Source: a virus
Reading direction: 5' to 3' (one strand)
IMG/VR virus record: IMGVR_UViG_3300044673_000170
Location: 1 to 34,289 of that record
Length of the DNA: 34,289 bases
Shown: piece after piece, positions 2,987 through 34,022 of the stretch
Layout: each line of letters starts with the position of its first letter
Position numbering within the stretch: the stretch's first letter is position 1
The notes under the pieces: generated by a model
What the model was told of the DNA's origin: nothing
What the model saw: the letters and a program-made list of their open reading frames with translations, nothing else
Databases searched by the model: none
Position numbers and translations under genes: made by a program

Positions 2987-3591
2987 GCGACTTCACGCAG
3001 CGTCACGAACACGAGCTCGCCGACTACTTCGGAAGCGTCCTCCGCGGCCGGATGTTCCCGAGCTCCGGCGGCATGTACGAGCAGCTCGCCGCGGCCGCCG
3101 CATCCGAGTTCCGATCCGTTGCGGTCGATGAGCATGGATGGGCGCTTCCGGTAGTTCCGTGCCGACCGACCCGATCGAGCCCGTCAAGCGAGGCCACGGA
3201 GGCATCCGCGGACGCGCTGGCCGCCGTCCGCGTGGAATCGAGGGTCAGGGCCGCGCTGGCACGACTCGAGCCAGTACACGTCCGCGTGCTCGCCGCGTGG
3301 TACGTCCCGCGCCCTCTCTGGAATCCGCATGGGCTGCACACACTCGCCGAGCTCCGCGCCGTGGTCGCCCTACTGGAAGGCGAAGAGCTGGCCAGGGAGA
3401 CGCTCAGGATGGCTGCGGCCGATGCGCGCACGGTCGAGAGCCGGGCCGCGAAGGCGCTGGTGCGGACGTGGAAGTCGCGTGCCCGTCTCGCGGTGGACCG
3501 GGCGAAGAGCGCGTACGCCGAGGCATCGATGCGGGTGGCGCAGGACGAGCGGGAGGAGCGGGCGATGCGGTTTGCGCGGGGGTTGGGATGA
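2983..3591 (+). CDS. Hypothetical helical protein upstream of the late HTH regulator (202 aa)
   Basis: The protein has a short acidic N-terminus, a Ser/Pro/Ala-rich linker around residues 60-75, and a helical segment RVRAALARLEPVHVRVLAAWY. The last segment resembles the helix-L-x-x-L-x-P pattern at the beginning of sigma-like or Q-like phage regulators. The C-terminal third (ADARTVESRAAKALVRTW onward) is a long basic helix. I cannot name the family. Position before an HTH gene, and then before the packaging genes, is compatible with a late-transcription role, which is inference. The stop overlaps ATG 3588. Confidence 0.55.
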   Translation: MSDFTQRHEHELADYFGSVLRGRMFPSSGGMYEQLAAAAASEFRSVAVDEHGWALPVVPCRPTRSSPSSEATEASADALAAVRVESRVRAALARLEPVHVRVLAAWYVPRPLWNPHGLHTLAELRAVVALLEGEELARETLRMAAADARTVESRAAKALVRTWKSRARLAVDRAKSAYAEASMRVAQDEREERAMRFARGLG

Positions 3592-3803
3592 TCGACCCGT
3601 TCAAGTGGACCCTGAGCCGAGAGCTGGCGCGCATCGCCGAGGCGGAGCTCGGTCCCGTCGCGTTCGATGTTCTGCGACGACACGCGCACGGCGACAGCAT
3701 CGAGGACATTGCTCGATCGTATGGGTACTCCAAGCGTCACACGAAAAGCATCGTGCACATGGCCAAGCAGACGATCCGCGATGTCGCAAGGAGGGTTGCG
3801 TGA
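3588..3803 (+). CDS. HTH protein, LuxR/sigma-region-4 type (71 aa)
   Basis: The protein is short and mostly one domain: L-G-P-V-A-F-D-V-L then HGDSIEDIARSYGYSKRHTKSIVHMAKQTI. This has the spacing of a GerE/sigma-70 region-4 helix-turn-helix (helix, IA-x-x-x-G-x-S turn, recognition helix with x-T-x-x-x-V/I). It therefore probably binds DNA. It is the penultimate gene before a non-coding segment and the terminase genes, so it is a good candidate late-gene regulator. Start ATG 3588 lies in a four-base overlap with the upstream stop. Confidence 0.7.
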   Translation: MIDPFKWTLSRELARIAEAELGPVAFDVLRRHAHGDSIEDIARSYGYSKRHTKSIVHMAKQTIRDVARRVA

Positions 3804-4186
3804 GTCGAGAAAAGGCGGATCCACCCATTCAGTCGAACCAGCGCATCTTGACGCTTGCTGATGCGGCAGCCGAACTGAACATCGTTCGTAAGCACCCAGC
3901 GCTGTGGCTCAAGCGCTACCTGCTTCGATGCGAGAAGCGGACCGGCCAGCACCTACTGATTCGGTCCGGCGAAGGGAAAGAGCGCGCGCGGTATGCCGTC
4001 AACATGGAGACGTTGCGGACCTACTGTCCAGACCTGATGTCGCGAGCGCCGGACATTCGAGCCGCCATGGAGCAGGCCCTCAGGAAGCTCTTCCGGAAGA
4101 TCGAGTCGGTGGAAGAGCGGATTCTTGAGGTCGAGAGTCGACAAAATCAGATAGCGATTCGACTGGCTTCCGGAAATCGAAAATAG
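3800..4186 (+). CDS. Putative DNA-binding protein with HTH N-terminus and coiled coil (128 aa)
   Basis: GTG 3800 overlaps the preceding stop; AGGAGG precedes it at 3789-3794. Residues about 16-40 (RILTLADAAAELNIV) fit the first helices of an excisionase/MerR-type winged HTH. Residues about 85-125 (RAAMEQALRKLFRKIESVEERILEVE) form a heptad-rich helix, probably a coiled coil for oligomerisation. A DNA-binding regulator or a packaging accessory are both possible. It is the last gene before the 430-base non-coding segment. Confidence 0.55.
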   Translation: MSREKADPPIQSNQRILTLADAAAELNIVRKHPALWLKRYLLRCEKRTGQHLLIRSGEGKERARYAVNMETLRTYCPDLMSRAPDIRAAMEQALRKLFRKIESVEERILEVESRQNQIAIRLASGNRK

Positions 4187-4281
4187 GCGCATCATCGCGA
4201 GACTGTTCGGTTTGCAGAAAACGGAAAACGACTCGAAAGGATTCGTAAGTACCGGCGAAACCACTGAAGGTGGTGGGTGGG

Positions 4282-4304
4282 GTCGGGGGCTTCGGCTCCA
4301 CGAC
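4282..4304 (+). other. UUCG-capped hairpin
   Basis: GTCG then GGGGC, loop TTCG, then GCTCC, a bulged A, then CGAC. The inner stem closes with C-G on a UUCG tetraloop, a very stable RNA cap. There is no T-run after it, so it is not a standard terminator. Confidence 0.55.
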
Positions 4305-4368
4305 AGCAACCGCACCGCGAGGAACCCGGACCGGCCAACACCTCCCCGGCCGAACGCTCCGACCTCGC

Positions 4369-4384
4369 AACCTCTACGGCTCGC
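4369..4384 (+). repeat. 16-bp direct repeat, left copy
   Basis: The sequence AACCTCTACGGCTCGC is identical to 4583-4598, 214 bases downstream. An exact 16-mer recurring so close is not expected by chance. It bounds the structured core 4385-4582. Confidence 0.85.
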
Positions 4385-4401
4385 AGCCTGATTCGTCGAA
4401 A

Positions 4402-4420
4402 CCCCAGGTGATGTCTGGGG
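4402..4420 (+). other. Hairpin with CCCCAG/CTGGGG stem
   Basis: A perfect 6-bp stem with loop GTGATGT. It is the first of three hairpins inside the segment bounded by the 16-bp repeats. Confidence 0.5.
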
Positions 4421-4460
4421 CCTATCGGTAGACGCATCGGGCTGGCGACGCCAACCATCG

Positions 4461-4503
4461 CAGCGGAGTTACTCTGCTGGAACCCCGAGGCCACGGCTTC
4501 GGG
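4461..4503 (+). other. Two consecutive 8-bp hairpins
   Basis: Stem 4461-4468 pairs with 4472-4479 around a TTA loop, with one G-T wobble. Four bases later, 4484-4491 pairs with 4496-4503 around loop CACG, again with one wobble. The back-to-back placement and wobble pairs look like an RNA fold, but it could equally be a protein-binding packaging site. Confidence 0.5.
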
Positions 4504-4582
4504 CATCACAACTGCGGGATGCGACCCTGGCCATGAGCCTGGGAGTGCTTCTGCCTCCGCACCGTCAGCAATGCCGATGCGG

Positions 4583-4598
4583 AACCTCTACGGCTCGC
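4583..4598 (+). repeat. 16-bp direct repeat, right copy
   Basis: Identical to 4369-4384. It ends 18 bases before the chosen terS start codon. Possible readings are a terminase binding iteron or a duplicated target at the end of an insertion. Confidence 0.85.
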
Positions 4599-4616
4599 TT
4601 CGGCGGGACCAGCGAC

Positions 4617-5009
4617 ATGGACGGGCTCACCGAGAAGCAGCGCCGATTCGTCGAGGCGTACGTCGGAACCGCTCAGGGCAACGCGACCGTCGCAGCCCGA
4701 ATGGCCGGCTACTCGGGCGACGACGCCACCTTGGCTCCAATTGGCTCGAAGCTGACAAGGAACGACAAGGTTGCGGCTGCCATTGAGGCTGCGCGCTCCC
4801 CCCGAACGAAGCGGGCCATCATCGACCGCGAACGACGGCAGCAACTGCTGTCCGAAATCGCAGAGAAGGGCGACGCGCAGGACCGCGACCGCATCAAGGC
4901 GATTGAGGTGCTCGGCAAGATGCAGGGCGACTTCATCGAGCGGCACGAGGTCAAGCACGAGGGCGCGGCGGTAACGGTCTACCTGCCCAGCAACGGACGC
5001 GATGGGTGA
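4617..5009 (+). CDS. terS: Small terminase subunit
   Basis: A 130-residue protein. From ATG 4617 it reads MDGLTEKQRRFVEAYV, then NATVAARMAGY and a helix-turn-helix, which is the Terminase_2 (TerS) signature: LT-x-KQ-x-x-FV-x-x-Y ... N-x-T-x-A-A-x-x-AGYS. TerS recognises viral DNA and loads the large subunit onto it. The C-terminal part (RDRIKAIEVLGKMQGDF) is the usual oligomerisation or TerL-contact region. An in-frame ATG at 4533 would add 28 residues with no family similarity, so it was not chosen. Neither start has a strong ribosome-binding site. The 3' end overlaps terL by eight bases. Confidence 0.88.
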   Translation: MDGLTEKQRRFVEAYVGTAQGNATVAARMAGYSGDDATLAPIGSKLTRNDKVAAAIEAARSPRTKRAIIDRERRQQLLSEIAEKGDAQDRDRIKAIEVLGKMQGDFIERHEVKHEGAAVTVYLPSNGRDG

Positions 5010-6426
5010 GCAGCTCGAGATTCGGCCGAACCCTGGACCGCAAGAGCAGTTCCTCTCGACCGCCGCCGACATCGCTATCTACGGCGGCGCCGCTGGCTCT
5101 GGCAAGTCGTTCGCCGTCGCCATCGACCCGCTACGTCATGTTCATCGCCGGGGCTTCGGGGCGGTCGTCTTCCGGCGAGAGAGCACGCGCCTCATCGGCT
5201 CCGGCTCGATCTGGGAGGAGGCTTCCGGCATCTACCCACGACTCGGCATCGGGGCGACTTCTCGCGAATCTCCGGTGCTCGACTGGCGGTTCCCGTCGGG
5301 AGCCATCCTCGAGTTCCGGCATCTTCAGCACGAGAAAGACAAGCTCGCGCATAGCGGCAAGCAGTACGCCGCAATCTACTTCGACGAGTTGACCGAGTTC
5401 GAGGAAGGCCAGTTCTGGTTTCTCGTCTCCCGCAACCGCTCGACATGCGGCATTCGTCCGTACGTTCGCGCGACGTGCAACCCAGACCCCGACTCGTTCG
5501 TTCGTCGACTCATCGACTGGTGGATTGATTCGGATGGCTTCCCCATTCCCGAGCGCTCCGGTGTCGTTCGGTGGTTCGTTCGTGATGGCGATGCTCTTGT
5601 GTGGGGCGACTCTCGCGAAGAGCTCGTTGCGCGCTACCCGGACTCCGGGCCCGTCTCGCTGACGTTCATCGCCGCCAGATTGGCCGACAATCCGAAGGGC
5701 GACCCGAACTATCGCTCGAAGCTCATGGCGCTCCCACGCGTCGAGCGGGAGCGGCTACTCGGCGGCAACTGGAACGTTCGTCCCGCGGCCGGCATGTTCT
5801 TCCGCCGCACGTGGTTCGAGCCCATCGATCGGGCCCCCGACGACATCGCTCTGTGGGTGCGAGCGTGGGACCTGGCAGCTACCGAGGAGTCGGCGTCCAA
5901 CGCGAGTCCAGACTGGACACGCGGCATCAAGGTGGGCATCACGAGCCCACGGCATCGACGAGACGAGGCCGGCCAGGTCACGATGTATCGCAAGTTCGTG
6001 TTCGGCGACCTGGTGAGCATCCGAGGCACGCCGGGCGCCGTCGAGAGCCTCTACACCGCGACGGCGCAGCAGGACGGCAAGGGCGTCATCCAGCTGTTCT
6101 GGCAGGACCCAGGCCAGGCCGGCAAGGTTCAGGCGGCATCGATCCGCCAACAGCTGAGAGACTTCGCGGTCGAGTTCGTTGTCGCCACGAAGGACAAGCA
6201 GACCTACGCCGAGCTCTGGAGTCGTCTGGCAGAACCGGATGACGATGAGACGTACGGCGCCGTTCAGGTAGTCCGAGCCGACTGGAACGCGGCCTTGTTT
6301 GCCGAGTGCGACTCGTTCCCCGATGGCGTCCATGACGACATCATCGACGCGGCATCACGAGCCATGCTCAGGCTGAGCGTTCCAGTTCAACGAAAGCCGC
6401 GCGCTCTGCGTGTACGAGGAATCTGA
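5002..6426 (+). CDS. terL: Large terminase subunit (ATPase and nuclease)
   Basis: A 474-residue protein with both terminase halves. The ATPase has Walker A GAAGSGKS at residues 29-36, Walker B AAIYFDEL with D128-E129, and the coupling motif ATCNPD at 157-162. The nuclease half has WVRAWDLAAT with Asp290, and HDDIIDA near residue 445 for the other metal-binding acids. The protein translocates DNA into the prohead and cuts the concatemer. It overlaps terS and is followed directly by the portal gene. Length and motif order are normal for the family. No interrupting intron or frameshift is seen. Confidence 0.95.
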   Translation: MGEQLEIRPNPGPQEQFLSTAADIAIYGGAAGSGKSFAVAIDPLRHVHRRGFGAVVFRRESTRLIGSGSIWEEASGIYPRLGIGATSRESPVLDWRFPSGAILEFRHLQHEKDKLAHSGKQYAAIYFDELTEFEEGQFWFLVSRNRSTCGIRPYVRATCNPDPDSFVRRLIDWWIDSDGFPIPERSGVVRWFVRDGDALVWGDSREELVARYPDSGPVSLTFIAARLADNPKGDPNYRSKLMALPRVERERLLGGNWNVRPAAGMFFRRTWFEPIDRAPDDIALWVRAWDLAATEESASNASPDWTRGIKVGITSPRHRRDEAGQVTMYRKFVFGDLVSIRGTPGAVESLYTATAQQDGKGVIQLFWQDPGQAGKVQAASIRQQLRDFAVEFVVATKDKQTYAELWSRLAEPDDDETYGAVQVVRADWNAALFAECDSFPDGVHDDIIDAASRAMLRLSVPVQRKPRALRVRGI

Positions 6427-13863: not shown

Positions 13864-14190
13864 ATGATCGGACAGCGAATGCGCGCGGTTCCGCGCGACG
13901 GCGCACACGTGCGTGACCCGAGGACGAACGAGCAGATCCCGCCGGATGGCAAGGTCGTGCTCGTCGATGTGTTTTGGGCGCGGCGCCTGATCGCTGGCGA
14001 AGTCGATCTCCTTCCGCTCGCAAAGAGCCAGGAGAAGCGGATCGACATTCAAACCGAAGCCGTTCTGCTTCCCGAGGTCTTCGCCGTGAAGGCGGACGCT
14101 GGCGATTCCGCTCCCGCCGATGAGGCAGGCGAGCCCGAGCAACCCATCACCCGCTCGCACCGTCGGCGGAAGGAAAGCGCGAACGACTAG
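13864..14190 (+). CDS. DUF2635-like protein (Mu gp38 type, 108 aa)
   Basis: Begins MIGQRMRAVPRDGAHVRDP, then PPDGKVVLVDVFWARRLIAGEVDL. The pattern M-R-x-x-P-x-x-G-x-x-V-x-D-P ... L-P-x-x-G-x-x-V ... Y/F-W-x-R-R-L-x-x-G-D-V matches DUF2635, a small protein encoded before the sheath in Mu-like phages. The C-terminal half is an acidic linker followed by a basic tail (RSHRRRKESAND), longer than the usual family size. Its role in the tail is not established. The last four bases overlap the end of the antisense HNH gene. Confidence 0.75.
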   Translation: MIGQRMRAVPRDGAHVRDPRTNEQIPPDGKVVLVDVFWARRLIAGEVDLLPLAKSQEKRIDIQTEAVLLPEVFAVKADAGDSAPADEAGEPEQPITRSHRRRKESAND

Positions 14191-14714
14191 GCGACATGCT
14201 TCCATCGTTCGCGACGCAGGATCCTGCAAACAAGAGACTGCGAGATGCCAAACATGGCGGCGATTTGTGACTGGCTAAAGGCGCCGCGTGTATATGCCGA
14301 ATGAATCCAACGAACGTTGTCGTCGTTGAGTTTGGCCTTGCTGTTCCTGGTGCCACGCGAATGACGATCCTTTGCGATCGCGTCACGTCTGTTCGCCTCA
14401 TCGTCACCAAGGAATAGATGGTCTGGGCGAACGCAGGCGGGATTGTCGCACTGATGAAGCACGTGCATTCCCGCCGGAATTGTCCCGTTGGCAATCGTCC
14501 ACGAAAAGCGATGCGTCACCTCACGACGAGATGACCCGTCGCTGTTGGATCCAACAGCGATCCATCCGTAACCAAACCGGTGGCAGCTCCCTGTCCACAC
14601 CCAGCATGGACCAAGTTCTTCACGGACCAATGGACCATCTCGGTTGACCTTCTCCCAGAACCGTTCCTCCGCTGGCCTGGGTTTTGGTCCGCGAGAATGC
14701 GCGCTCTTGTCCAT
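14187..14714 (-). CDS. Free-standing HNH homing endonuclease with C-terminal HTH
   Basis: A 175-residue protein on the strand opposite to its neighbours. The core RFWEKVNRDGPLVREELGPCWVW is followed by HRFSW, then HQCDNPACVRPDHLFLGDDEAN. This is the HNH_3 type, with the H, the C-x3-C pair and the RPDHL segment. The C-terminus SQSQIAAMFGISQSLVCRIL is a helix-turn-helix, probably for DNA recognition. The start is ATG 14714 (AGGAG just upstream); a longer frame to 14807 is less likely. The gene is visibly less GC-rich than the tail genes around it. It is related to the gene at 22608-23168. Confidence 0.88.
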   Translation of the reverse strand: MDKSAHSRGPKPRPAEERFWEKVNRDGPLVREELGPCWVWTGSCHRFGYGWIAVGSNSDGSSRREVTHRFSWTIANGTIPAGMHVLHQCDNPACVRPDHLFLGDDEANRRDAIAKDRHSRGTRNSKAKLNDDNVRWIHSAYTRGAFSQSQIAAMFGISQSLVCRILRRERWKHVA

Positions 14715-14719
14715 TACCT

Positions 14720-14735
14720 GCTCCTGAAATGGAGC
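14720..14735 (-). promoter_or_regulatory. Hairpin covering the HNH ribosome-binding site
   Basis: On the minus strand GCTCC, loop ATTTCA, GGAGC forms a 5-bp stem that places the AGGAG Shine-Dalgarno of the HNH gene in its 3' arm. Such sequestering hairpins hold down translation of phage T4 homing endonucleases. Whether it does so here is inference. Confidence 0.45.
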
Positions 14736-14800
14736 AATTCTAGCAGTCAATCCAGGGCGATGCCCATCGAATCGGCGGGTGTTCCGCCTGGAGGTACAAC

Positions 14801-16249
14801 GTGGCAATCGATTTCGACGAGATCTCTGCGACCAACGAAGTGCCGGCCAGTCTCACGGAAGTCGCGACTTCCGGGCCGACTGGAGCGGCGGCGAAGCGCG
14901 TGCTTCTGTTGGGGCAGCGTCTGAGCACCGGCGCCATTGCAGCCGACACGGTCTTCCGTGTGCTCGGCGAGACCACGGGCGACGCCAAGGCTGGCGCCGG
15001 CTCGTATCTCGCCGAGATGTGCAGAGCGTACAAGCGCATCGACAAGTCGAGCGTCGTTGATGCCATCGGCATCGACAATGGATCGGGTACGGCGGCCACC
15101 GGATCCATTGCCATTGCGTCGGGCACCGCGACCACGGCAGGGTCTCTCGACTTCATGATCGGTGGGCGACGCTACAGTGTCGCGGTTGAGGTTGGTGACG
15201 ACAATGACACCGACTACCTGACGGCACTCAAGGCGGCAATCGATGCGGACACGCGCCGCACCGTGACGACGAGCTCGATCACGTCGAGTACGACGCTTCC
15301 GCTTACGGCTCGGTGCAAGGGCCTCGCGGGGAACTACATCGACATCCGACAGGTCAGCGGCGACATCGGCGGGTTCACCGTCACGATCACCGCGATGTCT
15401 GGTGGCGCCACTTCGCTCACGCTGACCGGCGCTCTCGCTGCGGCTGCGGCGACGCACTACGATACGATCGTCTGCGGCTTCAACGACGACACCGCGCTCG
15501 ACACGATCGACACCGAGATGGCGCGCCGGTTCGCTGGCGGCGTCGAGATGCGCGGCACGGCCTTCGTGGCCACCACGCTCTCGCTCGCAGACTCGCTCAC
15601 GTGGTCCGCGTCGCGCAACAGCAAGCACATGTGCCCGACCGAAGCGGGCGCATCGCCCACGCCGTTCTGGATCTGGGCCGCGCAGGTCGCCGCACGCGAC
15701 ACGCTCGCGTATGCGAACGACCCCGGCCTTCCACGCAAGGGGCTCACGCTTCCCGACTGCATCGCGCCGGACATCGAAGACCGGTTCGAGTTCTCGGAGC
15801 GCAACCAGCTCCTTGCCGCCGGCATGTCGACGTACGACGTGGCGATCGATGGGACGGTCGCGATCGAGCGTCTCGTCACGGCGTACAAGACCGATGCGCA
15901 GGGTCAGGCGGACAAGAAATTCCACGACCTCACGACGATGCGCATCATCCACGACTACTCGGCGCGGTGGAAGGCCAAGACGTCGATCCTGGAAACGTAC
16001 AAGCTCGTCGATGATGACACGCCGCTTCGCCCCGGGATCCGCGCGATCACGCAGTCCGGCGGCAAGGCCATGATGGATACGTTCTACGAGGACTACGCCG
16101 GAACGGGCAATGTCCAGGACGTCACCAACTTCGTGGCGAACTCGCGATGCGAGCGCAACGCCAACGATCGAACGCGGCTCGATTTTTACCATCCGATGCG
16201 AGTCGGAGACATCGTGGTCACGGTTGCCACGCGACTTGAGGTGCAGTGA
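14801..16249 (+). CDS. Contractile tail sheath protein (Mu gpL-like)
   Basis: A 482-residue protein starting at GTG 14801, with GGAGGT five bases before it. Recognisable blocks are SGPTGAAAKRVLLLGQRL near the start, SLDFMIGGRRYSVAVEVGDD and LTARCKGLAGNYIDIR in the middle (the Mu-type inserted domain), then NDDTALDTIDTEM and, at the C-terminus, NDRTRLDFYHPMRVGDIVV. These match the Mu gpL sheath order. The protein polymerises around the tube and contracts at infection. Its start lies 87 bases after the HNH gene's 5' end. Confidence 0.92.
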   Translation: MAIDFDEISATNEVPASLTEVATSGPTGAAAKRVLLLGQRLSTGAIAADTVFRVLGETTGDAKAGAGSYLAEMCRAYKRIDKSSVVDAIGIDNGSGTAATGSIAIASGTATTAGSLDFMIGGRRYSVAVEVGDDNDTDYLTALKAAIDADTRRTVTTSSITSSTTLPLTARCKGLAGNYIDIRQVSGDIGGFTVTITAMSGGATSLTLTGALAAAAATHYDTIVCGFNDDTALDTIDTEMARRFAGGVEMRGTAFVATTLSLADSLTWSASRNSKHMCPTEAGASPTPFWIWAAQVAARDTLAYANDPGLPRKGLTLPDCIAPDIEDRFEFSERNQLLAAGMSTYDVAIDGTVAIERLVTAYKTDAQGQADKKFHDLTTMRIIHDYSARWKAKTSILETYKLVDDDTPLRPGIRAITQSGGKAMMDTFYEDYAGTGNVQDVTNFVANSRCERNANDRTRLDFYHPMRVGDIVVTVATRLEVQ

Positions 16250-19672: not shown

Positions 19673-20985
19673 TGCCAGCCTGGCTCGACCAGTACCTATC
19701 CCTCCCTGCGTCCATCGCTGACATCCCGTTCCACGTGGAGTCGGCGAAGACGCAGGTGGGCCGTCGCAGTGCCGTTCAGAAGTTCCCGGGCACCGACTAC
19801 GTTCGCGTCCAGGACCTGGGCGCAGAAGCCGATGTTTTCGACGTCGACGGCTACCTGATCGGCGACGACTACCACGTCAGGCTCAAGCGACTCGAAACGC
19901 TCTTCCGCAATCGCGTCGGCCCGTTTCTGCTCGTGCACCCGTACCGCGGGCGCACGCAGATCAATGTCGAGGGTCAACTCGAGGTCACCGAGGAGCGGCA
20001 GAAGGGCGGCTTTGCACGCTTCCGCTTTCGCGCGATCAAGGACGTCACGGGGCAGGTCCAGCAGTCGAGTGCAAGCCCGACGAGCACGGCCCGCAATGCC
20101 GTCTCAGTGGCGCGCACAGCATCCGTTGCAGCCGCGGCCACGCAGGTCTCGCAGCTCAGCAAGCCAGCCGTCCTCGCGAAGTTCCAGACCCAGCTCACGG
20201 CGCTACAGAGCTCGCTGACGAGTTCCATCGGCTCCGCGCTCGCGTTCGAGTCGACGCTCGCCACGTCGATCGGCTCGTCGCTCTCGTCCATGGCCAGCAC
20301 GGTGGCCGGATTGGCGAGCACTCCAACGGCCGCATTCACCACGCTCGGGTCGGTCGTCCGTGCCGCCGTCGGCGCTGTCATGACGGCCGAGTCGGCGAGC
20401 GAGGAATCGTTCGGCGCGCTCACCGACGGCCAGCGAATCGCGGCCATGCTCGGCATTGCCGGCCTACTGGCCCGGGGCGGCGACGAGAGCGGCCTGGGAG
20501 CCGTCGAGCCAGGCGGGATGGCCTCGGACCCGTCCGACGACCTCACGGCCGTCCAGGCGGCGGACAGGAACGCACAGGCTATCACGCTCGCGGTTCGCTC
20601 CGAAGTGGCTGCCACGGTCTGCGAGACCATCCTTGACACGGCGCCCGAATCGAAGACGCAGGCGAAAGAGGTGCTCGCCGCGATCTCGGCCCTGCTCACC
20701 GGAGCGAGCGATGGCGATCCCGACGCCGTCCTATATGCGGTCGATGCCGAGACGTACGTGGCGCTCTCGGACCTTCGCGCGGCGGCAACCAAGTACCTGA
20801 CCGAGACGGCCATTGGGCTGCCGACGATCGAGACGTACGAGCTTCCCGCCGAGACGTCCGCGTTCGTCATCGCTCAGCGGCTCCTCGGCGACGCATCGCG
20901 ATGGGACGAGATCGTGCAACGCAACGACCTCGACGACCCGCTCTTCGTTCCTGCGGGCACGACGATCGAATACCTGAGCGCCTGA
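19672..20985 (+). CDS. DNA circularisation/baseplate gpN-like protein with LysM-like C-terminus (437 aa)
   Basis: The N-terminal part (residues 10-120) has IPFHVESAKTQVGRR, VQDLGAEADVFDVDGYLIGDD and RGRTQINVEGQLEVTEER, the DNA_circ_N pattern of Mu gpN. A long Ala/Ser/Thr-rich helical region follows. The last 50 residues (TYELPAETSAFVIAQRLLGD, then WDEIVQRNDLDDPLFVPAGT) fit a LysM-like or P2 gpX-like domain, which has L-x-G-D ... W-x-x-I-x-x-x-N ... P-x-G. That domain sits near the spike of contractile tails. It starts in a one-base overlap with the tape measure stop. The name DNA circularisation is historical; a tail/baseplate role is likelier. Confidence 0.82.
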   Translation: MPAWLDQYLSLPASIADIPFHVESAKTQVGRRSAVQKFPGTDYVRVQDLGAEADVFDVDGYLIGDDYHVRLKRLETLFRNRVGPFLLVHPYRGRTQINVEGQLEVTEERQKGGFARFRFRAIKDVTGQVQQSSASPTSTARNAVSVARTASVAAAATQVSQLSKPAVLAKFQTQLTALQSSLTSSIGSALAFESTLATSIGSSLSSMASTVAGLASTPTAAFTTLGSVVRAAVGAVMTAESASEESFGALTDGQRIAAMLGIAGLLARGGDESGLGAVEPGGMASDPSDDLTAVQAADRNAQAITLAVRSEVAATVCETILDTAPESKTQAKEVLAAISALLTGASDGDPDAVLYAVDAETYVALSDLRAAATKYLTETAIGLPTIETYELPAETSAFVIAQRLLGDASRWDEIVQRNDLDDPLFVPAGTTIEYLSA

Positions 20986-22099: not shown

Positions 22100-22611
22100 G
22101 CGCACGCACGCAACGCTACATCCTCAAGCTCGTGAACGATGCGGGGAAGGTCCAGCTCCTCCAGGTTGAGGGCGAGCTCTTGGAGGACGGTGGACTTCCG
22201 GATGTCCTGGAGTGCGAAGGATTCGCGACGTTCGGATTCTCCGCAAATCCACCGATCGGGTCCGATGTCATCGTCACCGAGACCGACGGCGACTCGGCGC
22301 AGGGCGTCGCGCTCTCGGTACAGAATCGAGATCACCGGCCAAAGGGTTTGGCGACGGGTGATGTCTGCCTGCACGGGTTGAACGGTCTCGTTCAACTGCT
22401 GCTCACTGGCGGGCTGCTCCACCTTGGTTCGCAGAATCCGTCCGACTTCGTGGCGCTAGCCTCCAAGGTGCTGACCGAACTGAATGCGCTTGTGACGTGG
22501 GCGAATACGCACGTGCACACGTCTGCGGCACCCGGGTCGCCAACAACCGCTCCGACGATTCCAAAATCGGCGCCATCGAGCGTCGCGTCCACCGTGGTGA
22601 AATGCGCATGA
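22096..22611 (+). CDS. Baseplate spike/puncturing protein (Mu gp45-like, 171 aa)
   Basis: The N-terminal OB-fold-like part has GKVQLLQVEGELLED and a glycine-rich strand series. The C-terminal part contains WANTHVHTSAAPGSPTTAP, an H-x-H motif followed by the P-x-S/T tail. In Mu gp45 and P2 gpV such H-x-H residues bind iron at the tip of the trimeric needle. This supports a membrane-piercing spike. The gene ends in a four-base overlap with the second HNH gene, so the insertion kept the gp45 stop. Confidence 0.82.
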   Translation: MSARTQRYILKLVNDAGKVQLLQVEGELLEDGGLPDVLECEGFATFGFSANPPIGSDVIVTETDGDSAQGVALSVQNRDHRPKGLATGDVCLHGLNGLVQLLLTGGLLHLGSQNPSDFVALASKVLTELNALVTWANTHVHTSAAPGSPTTAPTIPKSAPSSVASTVVKCA

Positions 22612-23168
22612 AGAAGGGACCCACACCAAAACCCATGGCAGATCGGTTCTGGCCAAAGGTGGATCGCGACGGTCCGATCGTGCGCGAGGAACTTGGGCCT
22701 TGCTGGGTTTGGACGGCGTCCGTTGATGGCCGCGGGTACGGGCAGTTCTGGAATGGAAAGCGGCTCTCTCGAGCACACCGCGTGTCGTGGGAGATCGCAT
22801 ACGGTGAGATCGAGAACGAGATATGCCATCGGTGTGACAATCGTAGATGCGTAAGGCCAGACCATCTTTTCGATGGAACCCAAGCCGACAACATGCGCGA
22901 CATGTATGCGAAGGCTCGGAACTACCATAGGACCAAGCCGCACCTGATCCCCAGGGGGGACAGAAACGGATCCAGGACGCGGCCAGATCGGGTGCCTCGC
23001 GGCGAGACCCACGGTCATGCGCGGATCACGGAAAGCATCGTGCGGCACATCAGGCATACGTATGAACTTGGTGGCACGTCGATGCTCAAGCTCGCGCGGT
23101 CGCTCGGAATTCCGAAACGGACCGTGTTCGACGTGATTCATCGCCGCAGTTGGGCACATGTCGCCTAA
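22608..23168 (+). CDS. Free-standing HNH homing endonuclease with C-terminal HTH
   Basis: A 186-residue protein. RFWPKVDRDGPIVREELGPCWVW, then RVSWEIAYGEI and ICHRCDNRRCVRPDHLFDG repeat the HNH_3 pattern of the antisense gene at 14187-14714. The C-terminal SMLKLARSLGIPKRTVFDVI is a helix-turn-helix. ATG 22608 overlaps the spike stop by four bases (ATGA), and ATG 22602 is an alternative. It sits between the spike and the gp46-like gene, places where related phages have no gene. It is a candidate selfish element for transfer into related phages. Confidence 0.86.
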   Translation: MKKGPTPKPMADRFWPKVDRDGPIVREELGPCWVWTASVDGRGYGQFWNGKRLSRAHRVSWEIAYGEIENEICHRCDNRRCVRPDHLFDGTQADNMRDMYAKARNYHRTKPHLIPRGDRNGSRTRPDRVPRGETHGHARITESIVRHIRHTYELGGTSMLKLARSLGIPKRTVFDVIHRRSWAHVA

Positions 23169-27517: not shown

Positions 27518-27883
27518 ATGGCGAAGCACCGATTCGATATGCACGTGGTGCAGGGCTGCTCGTTCCGTCAGCCGTGGAGAGTCGGTGGCGGAACCGCTGC
27601 GGCTGGCATCACGTCGCCGTACGACCTCACGGATGCGCTCATCGAGTTGCGCGTGGTCGACGCGAGTGGCGGGTCGATGTTCGAGACGACGTCCGAAGGC
27701 TCCATGATTGTCATCGTGGACGCGAGCGATGGCAGTTTCGAGATCGACCTCGACGCGGCGACAACGGCAGCGTTTGAGCCTGGCAACGGTCGCTATTCGC
27801 TCTTCGTGACTCTCGCGGATGGCCAGCGCTTCGTAGGGCAAGGCGCGTTCATCGTCGAAGACTCGGTGGAGGCCGCATCGTGA
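27518..27883 (+). CDS. Small beta-sandwich-like baseplate/fibre protein (121 aa)
   Basis: The protein starts with FDMHVVQGCSFRQPW, then YDLTDALIELRVVD, SFEIDLDAATTAAFEPGNGRYSLFVTL and GQRFVGQGAFIVED. This is the immunoglobulin-like pattern of small proteins encoded before phage fibres (G-x-x-F ... L-T-x-A ... Y-x-L-x-L ... G-x-V). Such proteins often join fibres to the baseplate. The GTG start of the large fibre gene overlaps its stop. Confidence 0.65.
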   Translation: MAKHRFDMHVVQGCSFRQPWRVGGGTAAAGITSPYDLTDALIELRVVDASGGSMFETTSEGSMIVIVDASDGSFEIDLDAATTAAFEPGNGRYSLFVTLADGQRFVGQGAFIVEDSVEAAS

Positions 27884-33925: not shown

Positions 33926-33985
33926 GGACCCGGGCGCGACTCGAACGCGCATCGGCAGTCCGCTCTCCCGTTGAGCTACCGAGCC
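33926..33985 (-). tRNA. tRNA-like element lacking a normal anticodon arm
   Basis: Read 5' to 3' on the minus strand: acceptor GGCTCGG, TA, D arm GCTC-AACGGGA-GAGC, then only GGACTGCCGAT, then T arm GCGCG-TTCGAGT-CGCGC, and acceptor CCGGGTC with two G-T wobbles. The D and T arms are classic. The anticodon arm is 11 bases instead of the normal 17 plus variable region, and no anticodon stem can be formed. No CCA is encoded. An outer 8-bp stem (33916-33923 with 33989-33996) surrounds it. It may be a decayed tRNA or a structured RNA. Confidence 0.5.
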
Positions 33986-34022
33986 CGTGGTGATGGCCAC
34001 GGAATCATAGCACACGCACGTT

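Follow-up and report, generated by a model that had tools for sequence, protein, structure and literature searches.

Structured 5' leaders, among them attenuators and put-type antiterminator RNAs, present clusters of stable hairpins. In the phages SPP1 and SF6, the packaging site pac spans promoters, the ribosome-binding site and the start of the terminase small subunit gene (terS), and contains direct repeats (PMC4737164, PMC6316719). In SPP1, the late promoters, the ribosome-binding site and the start of gene 1 all overlap with pac, and the TerS-bound sequences pacL and pacR flank the cut region pacC (PMC6316719). No sequence identity links the pacL and pacR sites to which SPP1 TerS binds (PMC4856287), and the DNA-binding domain of SF6 TerS does not favor the box repeats, which are not read as specific sites (PMC4737164). 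Lambda likewise carries repeated TerS-binding sequences near terS, the R sequences of cosB (PMC4856287), and in staphylococcal phages a structured RNA, cabRNA, is produced from the terminase region (PMC10686824).

The DNA analyzed here (the window) is a viral record of 34,289 bases, perhaps a fragment, from a contractile-tail phage encoding sheath, tape measure and baseplate. Its terS (4617–5009, + strand) is of the SF6/SPP1 type and matches the SF6 TerS structure 3zqp (phmmer E-value of 3.1e-6; profile E-value of 8.2e-22), and it is followed by the terminase large subunit gene terL (5002–6426, + strand), the portal gene and head morphogenesis genes. Between an upstream ORF (3800–4186) and terS, within otherwise compact phage DNA, lies a 430-nt non-coding segment (4187–4616, + strand) that comes after an HTH/sigma-like ORF. 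A hidden gene in this gap was excluded, since coding scores against the window's own codon usage were negative in all six frames and the ORFs inside it had no match in Pfam or PHROGs. GC content falls to 48% at 4150–4249, an AT-richer stretch with A-runs, and neither a sigma-70 promoter nor a terminator was recognized. The small HTH/sigma-region-4-like ORF near terS (3582–3803) has a weak match to the late activator family phrog_836, and by eye an HTH/sigma-like gene also stands shortly 5' of terS in four relatives (L043, L060, L062 and L161). Elsewhere in the window, two free-standing HNH endonucleases (Pfam HNH_3) at 14187–14807 (− strand) and 22497–23165 (+ strand) both have atypical codon usage and a weak C-terminal HTH match, and one of them sits on the opposite strand just 5' of the tail sheath gene. 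A tRNA-like relic was noticed by eye at 33926–33986 (− strand), with recognizable acceptor, D-arm and T-arm (GUUCGAGUC) and a seemingly truncated anticodon arm; ARAGORN reported no tRNA there, and the Rfam tRNA-Sec score of 17.9 bits is under the cut-off.

The segment contains an exact 16-bp direct repeat, AACCTCTACGGCTCGC, with copies at 4369–4384 and 4583–4598 (both + strand) that are 214 nt apart and leave 198 nt between them, the second copy ending 18 nt ahead of the terS start codon. Allowing one mismatch, the repeat stretches to 19 nt (from 4366 and 4580), and with up to three mismatches the sole further site in the window is at 27592, within a gene. When the 430-nt gap was dinucleotide-shuffled 20,000 times, no shuffle contained a repeated 16-mer, whereas in shuffles of the whole window some 16-mer repeat arose in 68.5%, and one within 300 bp in 3.5%. 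The repeat is striking locally and modest once the whole window is counted. Iterons reaching into terS were looked for, and yielded only short and weak matches. A separate 17-nt near-repeat, CGGACCGGCCARCACCT, occurs at 3938–3954 in the upstream ORF and at 4327–4343 in the gap.

A sequence-only reading had described this repeat, its position before terS, three hairpins between the copies and a UUCG-capped hairpin outside them, all of which we recovered at the same coordinates. The UUCG-capped hairpin lies at 4282–4304, and the three between the repeats, each with eight continuous pairs (G·U counted), lie at 4402–4420, 4461–4479 (UUA loop) and 4484–4503 (CACG loop), all on the + strand. Going beyond that list, a predicted GCGAGG/CCTCGC stem (4317–4368, + strand) abuts the first repeat copy, and a long stem-loop (4378–4452, + strand) encloses the hairpin at 4402–4420; the 5' strand of its helix is GGCUCGC (4378–4384) of the first repeat copy, with a pairing probability of ~1.0 with 4445–4452. 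At least four hairpins of at least 8 bp were attained in the gap by only 1 of 1000 shuffles. The stretch between the hairpin at 4484–4503 and the second repeat copy folds more weakly.

On the 126-nt scale, the strongest fold of the window is the piece starting at 4376 (rank 1 of 1368, + strand), and 4378–4503 has a fold z of −5.2 on the + strand (0 of 1000 shuffles as low) versus −3.2 on the − strand, values that are somewhat overstated because the fold boundaries were picked after the fold was seen. The stronger fold on the + strand points to RNA rather than to symmetric DNA. On the 200-nt scale, the gap region ranks merely 16th and 25th of 341 pieces, which is unexceptional for this window, and a coding stretch at 19701 has a comparable fold score (z of −4.3). 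Pairing with either partner is equally good for both copies of the repeat (−10.6 and −9.7 kcal/mol). GGCUCGC of the second copy can lie opposite GCGGGACC, which is presumed to be the ribosome-binding site of terS, in a possible UUCG-capped hairpin (4592–4610, + strand) that includes the presumed Shine-Dalgarno GGCGGGA (4602–4608); this hairpin is read from the sequence, has an unremarkable z and is no better than shuffles. A longer predicted fold instead pairs the ribosome-binding site with codons of terS. Equal pairing of both copies follows from the duplication of the strand, and suggests without proving that the helices exchange.

The segment was not seen to be conserved in relatives, which covers half of what the sequence-only reading had named as refuting it. 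In the phage collection, nothing related at the DNA level turned up for the window's first 25 kb, the best TerL identity in our searches is ~62%, and blastn of the gap against phages and plasmids returned only short chance matches. Among the nearest relatives by TerS, L161 (63% identity) has no gap, since the HTH-type gene preceding terS overlaps it, L043 (59%) has at most ~100 nt ahead of terS, and L060 (41%; TerL 62%) has a 308-nt gap with nothing in common with the window. By a rough ORF count across 66 relatives, the upstream gene may overlap terS or leave a gap of up to ~1 kb, and the few gaps that hold repeats have unrelated repeat sequences. In two related contigs (L237:2924–2979 and L228:919–972), a 12–14 nt direct repeat, ACAATTATGTAA(GA), 42 nt apart, lies just 5' of terS in an AT-rich gap and resembles tandem promoters or operators.

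Nor was the same core found at other loci. In IMG/VR the 16-mer gave 13 single matches, about the chance number, all lacking a second copy and any further similarity to the gap; of the core 16–18-mers, one drew 16 unrelated matches and two drew none. The other intergenic parts of the window share no element with the segment. No Rfam family scored above its gathering threshold for the segment, and a tRNA or tmRNA identity was sought and not found. A single-sequence covariance model searched against 150 sources found only itself (best non-self E-value of 0.6, chance level), and neither by DNA nor with this model did we find homologues with compensatory stem changes. A covariance match in L011 was discarded because it lies inside coding sequence with the middle deleted. 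On these comparisons, the segment appears to be lineage-specific and without known relative, an orphan among a known kind of region, the non-coding control or packaging sequence that precedes terS.

We tentatively favor the reading that the segment is a lineage-specific structured 5' leader RNA of the terS-terL operon, possibly overlapping the packaging start. Of the roles suggested by the sequence-only reading, a structured RNA gained support from the analysis, as 4378–4503 is the strongest fold at its scale and folds better on the strand presumed to be transcribed, but no homologue turned up in which compensatory changes could be sought. The non-coding head of the packaging operon would be transcribed, perhaps from a promoter within the AT-richer sequence at ~4200–4260, as a structured leader in which the identical GGCUCGC strands of the two repeat copies may swap partners, the first lying in the long helix and the second able to pair with the terS ribosome-binding site. 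Such a swap could adjust the translation of terS or the read-through to the late genes, and the leader may overlap the site where TerS and TerL begin packaging, in the way that SPP1 pac overlaps the promoters and ribosome-binding site of terS. For transcription of the leader, as for protein binding, cleavage and regulation, this account is inferential. Like cabRNA, the segment would be a structured RNA that a phage makes from its terminase region, but cabRNA is transcribed from within the terS and terL genes, whereas the segment is non-coding and 5' of terS; it resembles the structured leaders known elsewhere in its cluster of stable hairpins before the first late gene, and it matches no sequence family in Rfam. 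Against a leader, relatives have terS without one. A more specific form, in which an undescribed terminase-operon leader RNA uses the duplicated 16-nt strand to let two helices exchange, one of which guards the terS ribosome-binding site, and thereby ties terminase synthesis to packaging or to a signal, is in our estimate improbable.

A plausible but rather doubtful alternative, which is compatible with a leader such that both can hold, is a pac- or cos-like DNA site. TerS would use the two 16-bp repeats as its left and right binding sites, bending or looping the 198-bp core, TerL would cut between or beside them, and the folds would be incidental or an aid to bending. The segment lies directly 5' of terS, and the SF6-type TerS together with the SPP1 pac layout makes a packaging role possible; the resemblance may extend to direct repeats and control sequences immediately before and into terS. 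The locus and SPP1/SF6 pac share no sequence, however, and here a candidate site has two copies 214 bp apart together with a strong + strand fold. The repeat itself is weak evidence for the terminase-binding iterons that had been envisaged, with two distant copies only, an SF6 TerS domain indifferent to pac repeats and pacL and pacR that differ in sequence. In L161 and L043, the closest by TerS, the space ahead of terS is essentially too small for such a site, and most relatives with long gaps have no comparable repeat. Compared with lambda cosB, where repeated sequences near terS are bound by TerS, the repeats here are candidates beside an SF6-like TerS, in two far-spaced copies against three, with no cosN known.

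It is also conceivable, and we think unlikely, that the segment is a fast-drifting or relict non-coding stretch without dedicated function, its repeat made by a short duplication or chance and its folds by GC-richness. In its favor, the segment is conserved nowhere among the collections searched, a local 16-mer repeat arises in 3.5% of shuffled windows, and coding regions attain similar fold scores. It sits less well with hairpins and an exact 16-mer in one gap, each rare in shuffles, and with the top-ranked 126-nt fold within compact phage DNA. A small insertion, ~198 bp long and bordered by a 16-bp target duplication, as also proposed from the sequence, is highly improbable: the direct repeat does exactly border the non-coding core and the segment is missing from the nearest relatives, none of which is close enough at the DNA level to show an empty site for the core, but neither inverted repeats at the core ends nor a mobile ORF was seen, no other copy of the core turned up in the window or the collections, the non-coding context runs past the repeats (4187–4368), and 16-bp target duplications are uncommon for known small elements.

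As yet, little is understood of how phages whose small terminases are SF6-like mark their own DNA and set their terminase levels. As the segment is an orphan, its value hinges on relatives or an isolate being found. A compact, well-folded and repeat-bearing segment right before an SF6-like terS is a concrete candidate for both DNA marking and the control of terminase levels.
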